Below are positions 1 to 5,057 of a stretch of 5,057 nt of DNA, piece by piece. The translations under genes were made by a program, and so were the position numbers. How positions within the stretch are numbered: the first letter of the stretch is position 1; each line of letters begins with the position of its first letter. Origin of the DNA: Bacillota bacterium (GTDB lineage: Bacteria > Bacillota > Sulfobacillia > Symbiobacteriales > Symbiobacteriaceae); contig JAQBPS010000564.1 of assembly GCA_028287415.1 (NCBI GenBank), forward strand, positions 1 to 5,057. Reading direction: 5' to 3'. Below the pieces are notes generated by a model. That model saw only the letters and a list, made by a program, of their open reading frames with translations, did no database searches and was not told the origin of the DNA.

Positions 1-567
1 GACCGACTCGAACGCTCGCTGATCAACCGGTTCCATCAGCAGTGCCCCGGATCGCATGAGCTGGGAGAGTATTATATGGCGCTGCTCCCCCGCACGACAA
101 TGCAGGCGATCGGTGCACACCTGGAACGCTGTTCGGTTTGCCAGACTGAACTCCAGGAGCTGACGCAGTTCCTGACCGAGGATCAGCGCACGCCGCTCGG
201 GCAGATGGTTGAGGTGATCCGCCAATGGGGCCGCGGCCTCACAACCGGACAAGCGGGCGCCGCCCTGCCGGGCATCCGCGGCGACGCCGGGGCCGGGCAG
301 ACCTTCGAAGCCGGCGACCTGTGGCTGACGGTGAAGGTGCGCGAGCGGGAAGACGGCCTGCGTGATCTCCTGGGTCTGGTCACAAGTGCGGACGGCTCCC
401 AGCTGCCGGCGGGCGTTGCCTGGGTGCATCAGGACGGCCGGTATTGCGCAGGCGCTACGCTCGATGCGAAAGGCAACCTTGTCATCACCGGCCTCCGCCC
501 GGGCGAGTACGACCTCTCCGTCGAGTATGCGGAGATCCGAGTCTCCGTGCGAGGGGTGACCCTCTAG
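1..567 (+). CDS. Zinc-finger anti-sigma-like (ZAS) protein with C-terminal beta-sandwich, 5' end outside window
   Basis: The reading frame is open from base 1 to the TAG at 565-567, giving 188 residues without the true start. Counted from base 1, C15, H40, C44 and C47 form C-x24-H-x3-C-x2-C, the zinc-binding anti-sigma signature (as in RsrA-type proteins), set in a typical context (LGEYYMALLP, HLERCSVCQTEL). The in-frame ATG at 76 is a poor start because it would discard C15 and helix 1; no ATG, GTG or TTG precedes C15 in this frame, so the start is upstream. Residues about 50-100 are a linker with no hydrophobic segment long enough to cross a membrane. Residues about 105-188 resemble a carboxypeptidase-regulatory-like beta-sandwich (GLVTSADG, DAKGNLVITGLRPGEYDLSV). 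The family role is to bind and hold an ECF sigma factor, presumably cytosolic here. A sigma gene may lie just upstream, unseen. The stop is 2 bases before the CHAT gene start, implying coupled translation. The ZAS call is firm; sigma binding is inferred. Confidence 0.85.
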   Translation, partial: DRLERSLINRFHQQCPGSHELGEYYMALLPRTTMQAIGAHLERCSVCQTELQELTQFLTEDQRTPLGQMVEVIRQWGRGLTTGQAGAALPGIRGDAGAGQTFEAGDLWLTVKVREREDGLRDLLGLVTSADGSQLPAGVAWVHQDGRYCAGATLDAKGNLVITGLRPGEYDLSVEYAEIRVSVRGVTL

Positions 568-569
568 CC

Positions 570-3344
570 ATGTCGGCCGTCACGCAGGAACTCGTCGCGC
601 TGGAGCAAGCGGCGGATGAGTGGATGCATCGCAACCCCGCCCGCTATCGTGAGACTGCGGAGCAAATGCTCACCCTCAGTCGGCACGGCGAGCCGGGCGC
701 CCGGGCCCGGGCCCAGCGCGCCTACGGCAACGCCCTGCGCATGGCAGGCGAACTGCCCGCAGCGCTGCGAGCCATCAGATCCGCGTTGCGGCTCTGGCAC
801 CAGGCCGGCGATGAGGTTGAGTGGGCCCGGACGCAGACTGCCTGCGTCGCGGTGCTCGCCGAACTCGGCAACATCCGCGGCGCCCTGAGTGCGTCCGCGC
901 TCGGGCTGGCTGTCTTCCTGAGGCATGAGCAGCCGCTGCCAGCGGCCCGCCTGCTCAACAATACCGGTGGCATCTACCTCTTTACCGGCCGGCCGCACGA
1001 AGCGCTCACGCAATATGCCCGGGCGAGATCGCTGGCAAGTAGCGCCGGTGACGGGTCGCTCCTCTCGCGGATCGACATGCATCGTGCGGTCGCGCTGCAA
1101 GCGCTCGGCCGGCACACGGAGGCGCTCACCGCCTGTGCCGGGGCGCTCCGGCGTGCACGGCCGACGGGACAAAAGCTCCACGCAGCCCGGATTCAGGTGA
1201 CCGCGGCCATTTCGCTCTTCCAGCTGGGCCGGTTCAGCAAGGCGCTGCGCCGCTTTTCACAGGCGCGGACGGTTTATGAGGAGCACGGTGCCACGCGGGA
1301 TGTGGCTGAGTGCGATCTCCATATCTGCGCCTGTTACCTCGAGTTAAACCGGGTGGAGCAGGCGCTGGAACGCGTCACTGCTGTGATCGAGCAGCCGGGT
1401 ACAGGTCGGGCCTGGTATGAGACTGCTTATGCCTGGTTCTACCAGGCTGTCGCGCTCGCTCGGTGCGGGCGCCTGCCGGAGGCGCGGGCCGTACTGCTGA
1501 AGCCGCGGCAGTTGTTTGCGAAGCACCATGACGCCTACGGGGCCGGGCGAGTCGCGCTGGAGGAGGCGCAGATCCTGCTCAGGCTGAACGAGACGATGCC
1601 GGCATCGCGGTGGGCAGCGCGTGCGAAGCAGTTGTTCGCGGTTGCCGGCAGCCGGCTGGAGGAGGCACGTGCCACCCTGCTGCTGGCGGAGACGCTCTAT
1701 CGGGGCGGGCGCCTGGCGCGCGCCTGGTCGGAAGCGCAAGCGGCCGACCGGGCCTTCCGGCGGGCACATACCCCCGGCCCGCGTTTTCAGTGCCTTCATC
1801 TGATGGGGCAGATCGCGATGCAGCGCGGCGCGTTCACCACCGCCCGGCGACTCCTGGCCAGGGCGATCCGACTGGCCGAGCAAATGCGCGGGGCGGTCCA
1901 GGTCACGTTCCGCGAGGGGTTTCTGGACGACAAAGCTGTCGCCTACGGCGACATGGTCTGGCTACACTTGCAGGAAGGGCGGGTGGCCGCCGCTCGCCGC
2001 CTTGCCGATCTGGCCAAGTCGCGGGGGCTGTCCGACCGCCAGATTGCCCGTCCTGATGCTCGCTCCCGTCCGGCCCGCCCTGCTGATCAGCGACTGCTCG
2101 CTGAAATCGAAGCGGTCAGGCTGGAGTACCAACAATTGACCCTGCCCTCGCGGTTGGGCTCACCGGCGCCCGCCACTGGCTCACTCAGAAGTTGGTGCGT
2201 CGACCCGGACCGCCGCAGCGACTTGGAACGGCGCCTGACGGCCCTCTGGGACGAGTGGGAACTCCGGCAGCTTGCGTCGGGATATGGCACCGCACAGCGC
2301 GGTGCGCGGCGAGCGCCAGCCGCGGCACGGCTCGGTCCCAAGGTGGCCATGGTGGAGTACCTGGTGATCCGCACGCGGGTGATCGCCTTCGTCAGCAACA
2401 GCAGGGGGCTCCGGGCGTGGGCGGATCTCGGCCCGCTGCACCCGGTCACGGAGGCGCTTGAACTGCTGCACCTCAACCTGGACACGGCGCTGGTTGCGAT
2501 GCAGGTCTCGCCCGGGCGCATGACCGGGCTGACCCGGAACGCACAGGGGCTGCTCGCCATACTGTATCGGCGCTTGTGGGCGCCTTTGCTGCCGTGGCTC
2601 ACCTTGATGCAGCAGGTGGTGGTTATCCCCCATGGCCCGCTCCATCTGGTGCCGTTCGCCGCCCTGTATGACGGCAAAGAGTACCTGGTGGCACAGGCTG
2701 AGCTGACACTGGCGCCGTCCCGGGCGATCTGGGCGCAATGCCGGGAGCGGACCGGCGAGTCCCTGGCAGGGCGCCCGGATCTGGTGATGGGCTGTAACGC
2801 CGACGGTCAGATTCCCCTCGTCGAGGAGGAGGCCCGTGCCGTCGGTGCCGCCCTCCAGGCGGCTGTCCATCTGGGGGCGGACGCCTCATTGACCCGGCTG
2901 GCCGAGGGCGCCCCCTATCGGATCGTCCACCTCGCCGTGCATGGGCAGTTTCGCGCCGATAACCCCCATTTTTCCACCTTGCTGCTGGCAGATGGCCCGC
3001 TCACCGCCATCGATGCGGTCACGCTGCCCCTGCACGCCGCGATGGTCGTGCTGAGTGGCTGTGAAACCGGCATTAGCAAGGTGACCCACGGCGAGGAACT
3101 CGTGGGGCTGGTGGCCGCCTTTCTCTCGTCCGGCTGCGCCTCGGTCCTCGCCAGCCACTGGCGGGTCGCTGATCCGAGCGCAGCCGATCTGATGCAGCGG
3201 GTATACAAGGGGCTCCTGGCAGGGCGCGGCAAGGCGGCAGCCCTGCGCGAGGCGCAAGCGAGCCTGGCAGGGGCCGGGCTTCACCCGGTCTATTGGGCCG
3301 CGTTCTCGCTGATTGGCGACGGCGGACCCGTAGCGGGGATATAA
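570..3344 (+). CDS. TPR-CHAT caspase-like cysteine protease
   Basis: This 924-residue protein has two parts. Residues about 41-490 are some eleven TPR-like helical hairpins (patterns such as YLFTGRPHEALTQYARA and ISLFQLGRFSKALRRFSQA), a protein-binding superhelix. Residues about 588-920 are a CHAT domain, a clan CD (caspase/separase) peptidase: the His motif HLAVHG places catalytic H791, the motif VVLSGCETG places C831, followed by the family hallmarks GEELVGLVAAFLSSG, ASHWRVAD and HPVYWAAFSLIG. Both dyad residues are present, so it should be active. No signal peptide or membrane segment is seen, so it should act in the cytoplasm. TPR-CHAT proteins are regulated proteases; the substrate here is unknown, with the neighbouring ZAS protein and subtilase as candidates. 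The frame extends upstream to ATG 444, but that start would overlap the ZAS gene by 124 bases and add an Arg/Pro-rich out-of-frame shadow; ATG 570 directly follows the ZAS stop and has GAGGGG (551-556) upstream, at a rather long spacing. Confidence 0.93.
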   Translation: MSAVTQELVALEQAADEWMHRNPARYRETAEQMLTLSRHGEPGARARAQRAYGNALRMAGELPAALRAIRSALRLWHQAGDEVEWARTQTACVAVLAELGNIRGALSASALGLAVFLRHEQPLPAARLLNNTGGIYLFTGRPHEALTQYARARSLASSAGDGSLLSRIDMHRAVALQALGRHTEALTACAGALRRARPTGQKLHAARIQVTAAISLFQLGRFSKALRRFSQARTVYEEHGATRDVAECDLHICACYLELNRVEQALERVTAVIEQPGTGRAWYETAYAWFYQAVALARCGRLPEARAVLLKPRQLFAKHHDAYGAGRVALEEAQILLRLNETMPASRWAARAKQLFAVAGSRLEEARATLLLAETLYRGGRLARAWSEAQAADRAFRRAHTPGPRFQCLHLMGQIAMQRGAFTTARRLLARAIRLAEQMRGAVQVTFREGFLDDKAVAYGDMVWLHLQEGRVAAARRLADLAKSRGLSDRQIARPDARSRPARPADQRLLAEIEAVRLEYQQLTLPSRLGSPAPATGSLRSWCVDPDRRSDLERRLTALWDEWELRQLASGYGTAQRGARRAPAAARLGPKVAMVEYLVIRTRVIAFVSNSRGLRAWADLGPLHPVTEALELLHLNLDTALVAMQVSPGRMTGLTRNAQGLLAILYRRLWAPLLPWLTLMQQVVVIPHGPLHLVPFAALYDGKEYLVAQAELTLAPSRAIWAQCRERTGESLAGRPDLVMGCNADGQIPLVEEEARAVGAALQAAVHLGADASLTRLAEGAPYRIVHLAVHGQFRADNPHFSTLLLADGPLTAIDAVTLPLHAAMVVLSGCETGISKVTHGEELVGLVAAFLSSGCASVLASHWRVADPSAADLMQRVYKGLLAGRGKAAALREAQASLAGAGLHPVYWAAFSLIGDGGPVAGI
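690..1889 (+). repeat. Ten 40-residue (120-base) TPR units in exact register
   Basis: Within the TPR-CHAT protein the turn between helix A and helix B, usually Gly followed by Arg, falls at residues 60, 100, 140, 180, 220, 260, 300, 340, 380 and 420: ten repeats of exactly 40 residues with no insertion or deletion. Examples are ELG-N (100), ALG-R (180), QLG-R (220) and RGG-R (380), followed by E-A-L or a similar A-rich helix B. Asn replaces Gly at 260 and 340. A further hairpin follows with its turn at residue 470, displaced by ten extra residues. The DNA copies are diverged, so this is an old protein-level repeat and not a recent duplication. Confidence 0.75.
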
Positions 3345-3350
3345 GGAGGA
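3343..3350 (+). promoter_or_regulatory. Strong ribosome binding site of the subtilase gene, overlapping the CHAT stop
   Basis: AAGGAGGA shares its first two bases with the TAA stop of the CHAT gene (3342-3344). The GGAGG core (3345-3349) is 8 bases from ATG 3358 and 5 bases from the in-frame GTG 3355. The ATG is favoured by codon and spacing, but the two differ by one residue only. The arrangement suggests ribosomes finishing the CHAT gene reinitiate on the protease gene. Confidence 0.8.
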
Positions 3351-3357
3351 GAGCGTG

Positions 3358-4824
3358 ATGAGTACCTTAAGGCCGACCGTTGCACCGACCCCAACGCCGA
3401 GTGCGGCACCGCCGCGGCGCAGACTGAATCAGGCGATTGTCTCGGGCCCGCTGGATCAGGTGGATCAGTTGGCCCGGGCGGTTACGCCAATGCCGGGATA
3501 TACGGTTGAGCCCCTGGCGCTGTATCAGAGTGGGCGCGGGGAAGTGAAGGCGGTCAAGGTCCTGTACCAGCCTGCGACCACCGAACCGCCAGATTGCACC
3601 GACCAGTTAAACCGGACCCTCCTGAACACGGCCATCCGTAACAATCTGACGGCGATCCGCACAGAGCCGAACTGCACCACATCGACACGCCCGGCCTGGC
3701 AAGGTCACCCGTATTCCTGGGAGGGGAACCCCTATTCGTGGGAGGGCAACCCGTTCACGGGGGATGGCGGCGCCTACGCCTGGGAGGGGAATCCCTACGC
3801 ACAGCCCCAGCCGCAGGCTGCCGCCAAAGTCGCACACGTGGTGCCAGCCGGCGCCAGCGTCGCCGCCGCACAGGCGCTCTTCGCGGCGCAGGATGCGTTC
3901 GCACGGATCCAGGTGGCGGAGAACGGTAAGCGGATCGCTGCGCTGGGGGAGAAGCTGGGGCAGGGGGTGCGAGTGGCGATCTTCGACACCTGCCCCAGCG
4001 CCCAGGGCCTCGGCGCACTGCCGGCGGGGCCGCTGCCCTGGCTCCATCCGCACTGGAACGCACCGCTCCTGCCCGCCGGCGAGTTCAGCGACCATGGGCT
4101 GTTCATTGCCTCGTTGATTAACTTTGTGGCGCCGTCCGCCGATATCCACCTGTACCAGGTGCTGGGCGGGGATGTGTTTGGCGATACGGCGACCCTGGTG
4201 AAGGCTATGGGCGATTTCCTCAACGATACGGCGACCAGCCCGGCGGTGATCAGCCTCAGCCTCGGCAGCATGTGCTGCGATGGCGGCGCCATGCCCGCCG
4301 TGGAAGGGCTCATCTGGGAGGCGCAGCGGCGGGGCATGGTGATCTGTGCTGCGTCAGGCAACAATGGCCGCCGGGCGATGAAGGCGGCGACGATTCCCCC
4401 TGCGCAGATGCCGGCCGCCTTGCGAAACGTGATTGCCGTTGCTGCCGCGAACCGCCAGGATATCCGTGCCAGTTATTCGCACCGCGGCGATATTGCGGCG
4501 CCGGGCGGCGAAACGGCTGGCGCAGCCGGGCCCAACGGCTTCGATGACATCATCGGTCTCGGTACGGTCTCCCCATCGGGGTACATTCGCATGGACTGCG
4601 GCACCTCGTTTGCGACGCCGCTGGTGGCGGGCGCTGCAGCGCTCGTGCTGGCCGATCTGGTGGGGCGCGGGGCATCGCTTGATTCCGGGATGTGGCGCCG
4701 GGTTTATGACCGGCTTGCGCTGGGCGCAGTGCCACCGGCCGGCGAGCCGGATACCCTGAACACAACGGGCCTGGGGGCAGGTGTGATCCGGATTGGTGGG
4801 CGCAACAGCATCTACGGCTGTTGA
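3358..4824 (+). CDS. S8 family subtilisin-like serine protease, cytoplasmic, with heptapeptide repeats
   Basis: The product is 488 residues from ATG 3358. The catalytic domain covers about residues 205-465: D210 in VAIFDT, H246 in SDHGLFIASLI, oxyanion-hole N335 in AASGNNG, and nucleophile S417 in GTSFATPLVAGAAAL. Supporting family segments are VISLSLG, RNVIAVAA, SYSHRGDIAAPGG. All four key residues are present, so the enzyme should be active, although the His motif is divergent (HGL instead of the usual HGT). The N-terminus is Thr/Pro/Ala-rich (residues 7-19) and then Arg-rich (20-22), with no signal peptide or membrane helix, which is unusual since most subtilases are exported. Residues about 22-72 might be a small alpha/beta prodomain resembling inhibitor I9; this is tentative. 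Residues 114-148 are five tandem seven-residue repeats, followed by an Ala-rich stretch. It lies 13 bases after the CHAT gene and is probably in the same operon. It could be a cell-internal effector, a maturation protease for the downstream secreted protein, or a CHAT substrate. Confidence 0.93.
   Translation: MSTLRPTVAPTPTPSAAPPRRRLNQAIVSGPLDQVDQLARAVTPMPGYTVEPLALYQSGRGEVKAVKVLYQPATTEPPDCTDQLNRTLLNTAIRNNLTAIRTEPNCTTSTRPAWQGHPYSWEGNPYSWEGNPFTGDGGAYAWEGNPYAQPQPQAAAKVAHVVPAGASVAAAQALFAAQDAFARIQVAENGKRIAALGEKLGQGVRVAIFDTCPSAQGLGALPAGPLPWLHPHWNAPLLPAGEFSDHGLFIASLINFVAPSADIHLYQVLGGDVFGDTATLVKAMGDFLNDTATSPAVISLSLGSMCCDGGAMPAVEGLIWEAQRRGMVICAASGNNGRRAMKAATIPPAQMPAALRNVIAVAAANRQDIRASYSHRGDIAAPGGETAGAAGPNGFDDIIGLGTVSPSGYIRMDCGTSFATPLVAGAAALVLADLVGRGASLDSGMWRRVYDRLALGAVPPAGEPDTLNTTGLGAGVIRIGGRNSIYGC
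3697..3801 (+). repeat. Five tandem 21-base units encoding WEGNPYS-type heptapeptides
   Basis: In the subtilase frame the units are WQGHPYS (3697-3717), WEGNPYS (3718-3738), WEGNPFT (3739-3759), GDGGAYA (3760-3780, degenerate) and WEGNPYA (3781-3801). They abut exactly, giving 105 bases or residues 114-148. Among the four better copies the base differences fall largely at third codon positions (for example GGG/GGC, AAC/AAT, CCC/CCG), so the peptide pattern rather than the DNA appears to be conserved. The repeats lie between the N-terminal segment and the catalytic domain, where a cleavage or binding linker would sit. Confidence 0.9.
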
Positions 4825-4921: not shown

Positions 4922-5057
4922 TTGCGGAAAATATTTGGTGTTCTGCTGAGTACCATGTTGGTCTTTGCTTCGGTCGGCTTTGCTTCGGCGGCGACCAAGA
5001 TACCGCCGGACCCGTACAAGATCAAGGTCCCGCCGGACCCGTACAAGAGCCCGGCTG
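4922..5057 (+). CDS. Secreted protein with signal peptide and PPDPYK repeats, 3' end outside window
   Basis: The frame starts at TTG 4922 and remains open to the window end, giving 45 residues. Residues 1-23 are a classic Sec signal peptide: basic n-region (MRKIFG), hydrophobic core (VLLSTMLVFASVGF) and A-S-A at 21-23, with predicted cleavage after A23. The mature part starts ATK and then carries PPDPYK at residues 28-33 and again at 37-42, nine residues apart. The segment is Pro/Lys-rich and probably extended rather than globular. There is no lipobox Cys at the cleavage site, so it is likely released or periplasmic and not a lipoprotein. I do not recognise a family and the full length is unknown. 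It follows the subtilase by 97 bases on the same strand and may be read from the same transcript; its translation could be damped by the upstream hairpin and the TTG start. It is a possible substrate or partner of the upstream proteases, by context only. Confidence 0.75.
   Translation, partial: MRKIFGVLLSTMLVFASVGFASAATKIPPDPYKIKVPPDPYKSPA
5003..5047 (+). repeat. Direct repeat, 18 identical bases at 27-base period, encoding PPDPYK twice
   Basis: CCGCCGGACCCGTACAAG occurs at 5003-5020 and 5030-5047, in frame, as PPDPYK-IKV-PPDPYK. The copies are identical to the base, including third positions, in contrast to the diverged heptads of the subtilase gene, so this is either a recent duplication or a repeat kept uniform. 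The array may continue past the window end. Confidence 0.9.

Follow-up and report, generated by a model that had tools for sequence, protein, structure and literature searches.

We analysed a stretch of 5,057 nucleotides (the window), which is the whole of contig C565 in a Symbiobacteriaceae genome (G000, 77.8% complete). It holds three genes, for an anti-sigma protein, a TPR-CHAT protein and an S8 subtilase. Together with a gene for an extracytoplasmic function (ECF) sigma factor, they form a cassette that is real, recurs beyond chance and spans three phyla. The original prediction had read the anti-sigma and TPR-CHAT genes as a stand-alone Craspase-like sigma switch. The recurrence of the sigma gene and the conserved adjacency of the pair speak for such a switch. 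The pair is part of a four-gene cassette that includes S8, and Craspase is not the closest precedent. The circuit it described is plausible. In our preferred reading, to which we give a probability of about 0.5, the anti-sigma protein would hold the ECF sigma factor silent until a signal lets CHAT cut a hinge within it.

A cassette shared by three phyla

The closest relative of the window is locus L003, in the Symbiobacteriaceae metagenome-assembled genome (MAG) JARBUG010000081.1 (genome G306), whose TPR-CHAT protein is 49% identical to that of the window and where the four genes stand in a row with the sigma gene at its head (Table 1). In the window, the contig begins inside the anti-sigma gene, of which about 3 codons are lost by comparison with a second contig of G000, C63 (locus L040). 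This contig carries a sigma gene (3325-3927) and then breaks off 62 codons into an anti-sigma gene whose reading frame is still open; over the final 136 bases (4000-4135) it matches window positions 1-136 at 125/136 (92%). Either C63 represents a strain variant, or the genome has the cassette twice. We infer that the window is directly preceded by a sigma gene in its own genome, beyond the contig end.

In Acidobacteriota, 20 of 247 genomes hold TPR-CHAT genes at E 1e-70 or better, at 27 places in all (at most three candidates per genome were scored), and all 27 were fetched. Hidden Markov models (HMMs) at E 1e-6 within 6 kb find an S8 gene beside 21 of them, a sigma gene beside 20 and all three partners beside 16. 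An anti-sigma gene accompanies 23 of the 27 compared with none of 34 control CHAT loci, and the adjacency on which the original prediction was built is thus conserved across genomes. The HMMs were seeded from the same loci and are hence biased in their favour; before they were built, phmmer searches with the proteins of the window and of L003 found S8 and, weakly, anti-sigma beside many Acidobacteriota CHAT genes, and hardly any sigma. Sigma, anti-sigma, CHAT and S8 follow each other in this order on one strand in 12 of the 16 full loci, with other arrangements in L094, L097, L106 and L109.

The control loci also lack S8 entirely, and 8 of them have a sigma gene (E 2e-14 to 7e-7), which lies on the opposite strand in six cases. 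L008, which shares a contig with L092, and L023, from a Bryobacterales genome, were left out of the controls because they lie close to the Acidobacteriota family; an earlier scan had given no sigma, anti-sigma or S8 match for either. Several control and Acidobacteriota stretches end at contig edges. The neighbourhood goes beyond chance, since it is seen again in other phyla and the controls show so few of its partners.

For Actinomycetota, loci were picked by the anti-sigma profile, and 20 of 27 contain CHAT, all 20 with both sigma and S8. The sigma gene is therefore conserved beside the pair here as well as in L003 and Acidobacteriota, a check that the original prediction had proposed. The window's order is found in 11 of these 20 loci, S8 stands in front in 2, and 7 are arranged otherwise. 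The 27 places were selected on E-value or sandwich coverage, so that 20/27 is not a phylum-wide rate; 144 of 296 genomes match profile A5 at 1e-5, with the matches listed in part. Among the seven loci without CHAT, L150 and L168 touch a contig edge, L173 and L174 resemble ordinary membrane anti-sigmas, and L162, L169 and L172 have no CHAT in the stretch examined. L162 and L169 are pairs of a sigma and a sandwich-protein gene, with no S8 in that stretch either.

In Bacillota, the window's own phylum, sigma profile A1 is found in 1 of 299 sampled genomes and anti-sigma alignment A9 in 1 of 199, G000 both times, and TPR-CHAT occurs in 2 of 8 genomes of the window's order. In Planctomycetota, 4 of 149 genomes match A9, one at 2e-17 and the others at E 4e-14 or weaker. 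Six distant TPR-CHAT loci (L004, L006, L007, L010, L013 and L015) have an ECF-like sigma gene about 1-2 kb away on the opposite strand and perhaps represent a further link between CHAT and sigma factors; five of the six come from Bacteroidota-type MAGs or Phaeodactylibacter.

Features of the cassette proteins

The TPR-CHAT gene starts 2 bases after the anti-sigma stop codon, as originally described. From sequence and structure model, its product is a CHAT peptidase with a His/Cys dyad behind TPR repeats: it matches Pfam CHAT (E 1.6e-57) and TPR families, and among known folds its model (m7d820f7d7e99, mean pLDDT 89.8) best matches TPR-CHAT chains of Craspase. The dyad H791/C831, reported earlier as intact, is invariant in 49/49 rows of alignment A10 and in 30/30 rows comprising the window, L003, the 27 Acidobacteriota proteins and L092, a locus kept out of the Acidobacteriota group, with no sigma, anti-sigma or S8 match. 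The closest database relatives are 19 proteins (P0002-P0020) with 47-55% identity, two of them named Symbiobacteriaceae; the next are near 30% identity, three being named as Acidobacteriota groups.

The anti-sigma protein is predicted, from its sequence and a model of its L003 relative, to consist of a zinc-type anti-sigma domain, a hinge and a carboxypeptidase-regulatory-like beta-sandwich. All four candidate zinc ligands of the original prediction (C15, H40, C44 and C47) are present and fit the pattern of zinc-binding anti-sigma (ZAS) proteins, an upstream Cys/His followed by HX3-4CX2C in a helical N-terminal domain, so that zinc binding is predicted. The L003 protein exceeds the zf-HC2 cut-off (24.8 vs 22.2 bits), and its model has a helical N-terminal domain with a match to ChrR. 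The C-terminal sandwich of the window protein weakly matches CarboxypepD_reg (Pfam E 3.5e-5, under cut-off), and Foldseek with the anti-sigma model gave 0 matches at E 0.001 or better. Neither the window protein nor that of L003 has a 19-residue stretch of mean Kyte-Doolittle hydropathy 1.6 or more.

The hinge contains a Gly-x-Arg motif whose Arg is kept in 50/50 rows of the locus set and 65/65 rows of alignment A9 (63 of the 120 database matches listed, of 236 found, plus the window and L003). In the L003 model the hinge is a linker of low pLDDT. We infer that this Arg, invariant and set in a hinge predicted to be loose, is a candidate site of CHAT cleavage.

The original prediction ended the feature at position 3344 and left out the S8 gene, through which the feature extends. 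The S8 catalytic residues D211/H247/S418 and N336 are present. By a crude hydropathy rule, the window S8 has no export-like hydrophobic N-terminus and 21/21 Acidobacteriota S8 proteins have one.

Table 1 Features of the window and gene positions in locus L003
Stretch	Feature	Position	Strand	Basis or remark
Window	Anti-sigma gene	1..567	+	Open reading frame open at base 1, stop 565-567; 5' end lost at contig end
Window	Candidate zinc ligands C15, H40, C44, C47 (partial-protein numbering)	43..141	+	HX3CX2C and upstream Cys
Window	Gly91-x-Arg93 hinge motif	271..279	+	Candidate CHAT cut site
Window	TPR-CHAT gene, 924 amino acids	570..3344	+	ATG at 570
Window	22 helices, ~11 TPR-like hairpins (residues 3-441)	576..1892	+	Model m7d820f7d7e99
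Window	CHAT peptidase domain (residues 662-917)	2553..3320	+	Pfam, alignment, sequence
Window	H791	2940-2942	+	CHAT dyad
Window	C831	3060-3062	+	CHAT dyad
Window	Asp868 in W-x-V-x-D motif	3171-3173	+	Alignment
Window	S8 subtilase gene, 489 amino acids	3355..4824	+	Pfam match, triad residues in sequence
Window	Trp-rich repeat (HPYSWEG/NPYSWEG type)	3697..3798	+	Sequence; between S8 N-terminal region and S8 domain
L003	ECF-like sigma gene	4608-5213		First gene of row
L003	Anti-sigma gene	5273-5872		Second gene of row
L003	TPR-CHAT gene	5869-8631		Third gene of row
L003	S8 gene	8655-10010		Fourth gene of row

Trp-rich tandem repeats also occur in the S8 proteins of L003, L106, L108, L109, L110, L111 and L113. 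Across these two phyla the repeats differ in sequence and are alike in position, following the N-terminal region and preceding the catalytic domain; the remaining S8 members compared lack them. In L096, a tandem pair of S8 genes (8950-11505) follows the TPR-CHAT gene. With PADLOC, the window S8 matches subtilase and IetS models (E 1.9e-8, 4.4e-6 and 1.4e-4), which we did not accept as membership, and there is no family for the anti-sigma or TPR-CHAT proteins. Right after the S8 gene, a partial plus-strand open reading frame with a TTG start (4922-5057) is ended by the contig edge; it encodes a signal-peptide-like N-terminus and an IPPDPYK/VPPDPYK repeat.

How the sigma factor might be released

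In the proposed mechanism, the anti-sigma protein would bind the cassette ECF sigma factor and keep it silent. On a signal, for which the TPR superhelix is the probable sensor, CHAT would cleave the anti-sigma protein behind the hinge Arg and so release the sigma factor. The freed sigma factor might in turn raise cassette expression, and S8 would be the output protease. The whole would amount to a Craspase-like action without a CRISPR guide, and to a soluble, split version of DdvA, a protein described below. A more far-reaching version, in which the cassette is a guide-free, ancestor-like Craspase whose TPR-CHAT cuts the anti-sigma protein at the hinge Arg, the sigma factor fires the cassette, S8 is a second protease and the ECF54 'carboxypeptidase' is this anti-sigma protein after erosion of its zinc head, we consider tentative and less probable.

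Several observations weigh against this mechanism. The best argument against the hinge Arg as cut site is its retention without a nearby CHAT: it is also present at L162, L169 and L172, and because of this it may serve folding or sigma binding instead. The Gly preceding it varies (38/50 rows of the locus set). The zinc knuckle is missing in 7/23 Acidobacteriota anti-sigma proteins and in all 14 full-length and all 11 short proteins of Actinomycetota. Asp868, which presumably corresponds to the separase S1 Asp, lends weak support to Arg specificity of CHAT, since 26/30 control CHATs also have it. In Csx29 the S1-type Asp is lost, according to the part of PMC9729208 consulted.

The sigma factor of Symbiobacteriaceae is itself divergent. 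It has no Pfam sigma match, its NCBIfam sigma70-ECF matches stay under cut-off (2.2e-6 in L003 and 8.7e-5 in C63), and its profile link to the other cassette sigmas is weak (E 4.8e-4, 32% probability). The sigmas of the other phyla are ordinary sigma factors and exceed the Sigma70_r2 cut-off in 9/10 Acidobacteriota proteins scanned (none for L098) and in 2/2 from Actinomycetota. Autoregulation of the cassette by the freed sigma factor is unsupported, since the stretches upstream of 28 sigma genes, searched for two-block motifs, gave no shared promoter motif clearly above shuffles: the best motif occurs in 5/17 sequences from Acidobacteriota and Symbiobacteriaceae and, GC-rich, in 6/11 from Actinomycetota, with shuffle maxima of 3-5 in both cases.

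We considered whether S8, rather than the anti-sigma protein, is the main CHAT substrate, cut in the linker between its N-terminal region and catalytic domain as in a caspase-to-subtilisin cascade, with sigma and anti-sigma only setting expression. The linkage of S8 to CHAT nearly equals that of anti-sigma (21 vs 23 of 27), and the Trp-rich repeats fall in that very linker in the window, L003 and six Acidobacteriota loci. Nonetheless, other S8 members lack these repeats, and the export-like N-termini in Acidobacteriota mean that S8 would quit the compartment of CHAT, which makes this route unlikely. About equally unlikely is that TPR-CHAT acts without proteolysis, as a docking sensor from which the anti-sigma-sigma complex is released on a signal: DdvA, which unites an anti-sigma-like domain and TPR-CHAT in a single chain, would offer a model for it, whereas the invariant His and Cys look enzyme-like, yet both are aligned in DdvA too.

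Somewhat less probable still is that the anti-sigma protein is itself the sensor, a zinc or thiol switch like ChrR or RsrA, and that TPR-CHAT and S8 are only effectors of the freed sigma factor. A zinc knuckle followed by a beta domain is a ChrR-like layout, and soluble ZAS proteins normally answer oxidative stress, as stated in the part of PMC8999054 consulted; the cassette nevertheless persists where the knuckle is lost. That the genes are chance neighbours with no joint function is very improbable and already contradicted: CHAT proteins are common, with many in each of several genomes, but the control loci lack anti-sigma and S8 and the four genes recur in three phyla.

Precedents and significance

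Two precedents are closer than Craspase: the ECF54 context (PMC8999054) and DdvA (PDB 8rot/8rw5). In Actinobacteria, proteins with CHAT, subtilase and carboxypeptidase domains are encoded beside ECF54 sigma factors, and proteolytic control has already been proposed, in the portion of PMC8999054 on this group, which cites Huang 2015 and Casas-Pastor 2021. The same combination is found in L003 and the Actinomycetota loci, which resemble ECF54 loci in gene content. Unlike the group as described in that portion, with no anti-sigma in its context, the cassette includes an anti-sigma-type domain. Alignment and hhalign link the sandwich protein of the window to Actinomycetota proteins in which the zinc ligands or even the entire N-terminal domain are missing, and from these sequences the 'carboxypeptidase' of ECF54-type loci looks like a derived anti-sigma relative. 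This is new, as is the spread of the cassette over three phyla.

DdvA, the subject of PDB entries 8rot and 8rw5, is called a transmembrane anti-sigma factor in the entry title. In its chain (8rot_B, 991 residues), positions 3-45 form an anti-sigma-like N-terminus (whole-chain E 0.001), and a CHAT domain covers positions 833-975 (E 7e-8). It resembles the cassette in combining such an N-terminus with a TPR-CHAT-like fold, and its His and Cys align with those of the window. Unlike this single transmembrane chain, the cassette has separate anti-sigma and TPR-CHAT genes, no long hydrophobic stretch in the window anti-sigma protein, and a sandwich domain and S8 as extra parts. Anti-sigma and TPR-CHAT are split in the cassette and fused in DdvA, which argues that they may act together.

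In Craspase (type III-E), the TPR-CHAT protein Csx29 cleaves Csx30, an inhibitor of the sigma factor CASP-sigma, as given in the consulted parts of PMC10028731 and PMC9729208. Unlike Csx29, the window TPR-CHAT reaches 43.5 bits against a curated cut-off of 300; the inhibitor is a zinc-type anti-sigma and an S8 gene is added. Consistent with the earlier statement that no gRAMP effector is visible, the RAMP domain PF03787 is found in neither G000, which is incomplete, nor G306 (0/2 genomes; no search for CRISPR arrays or Csx30 was made). ECF270 and ECF271, whose model members come from Acidobacteria and Chloroflexi, are described as regulated by ZAS proteins; the consulted part of PMC8999054 mentions neither CHAT nor S8 for them. 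Titles and abstract openings gave no report of CHAT cutting an anti-sigma outside type III-E, which is not proof of absence.

The pairing of anti-sigma and TPR-CHAT known from Craspase and DdvA is now placed in a cassette of three phyla, with no RAMP domain in the two genomes checked. ECF54-type loci would gain an anti-sigma-like partner that they were thought to lack. More speculatively, such cassettes are a possible setting that could have supplied type III-E systems with their protease and sigma parts. Finally, a single residue, the hinge Arg, can be named as a handle on whether cleavage by a bacterial caspase-like protease is what frees a sigma factor.

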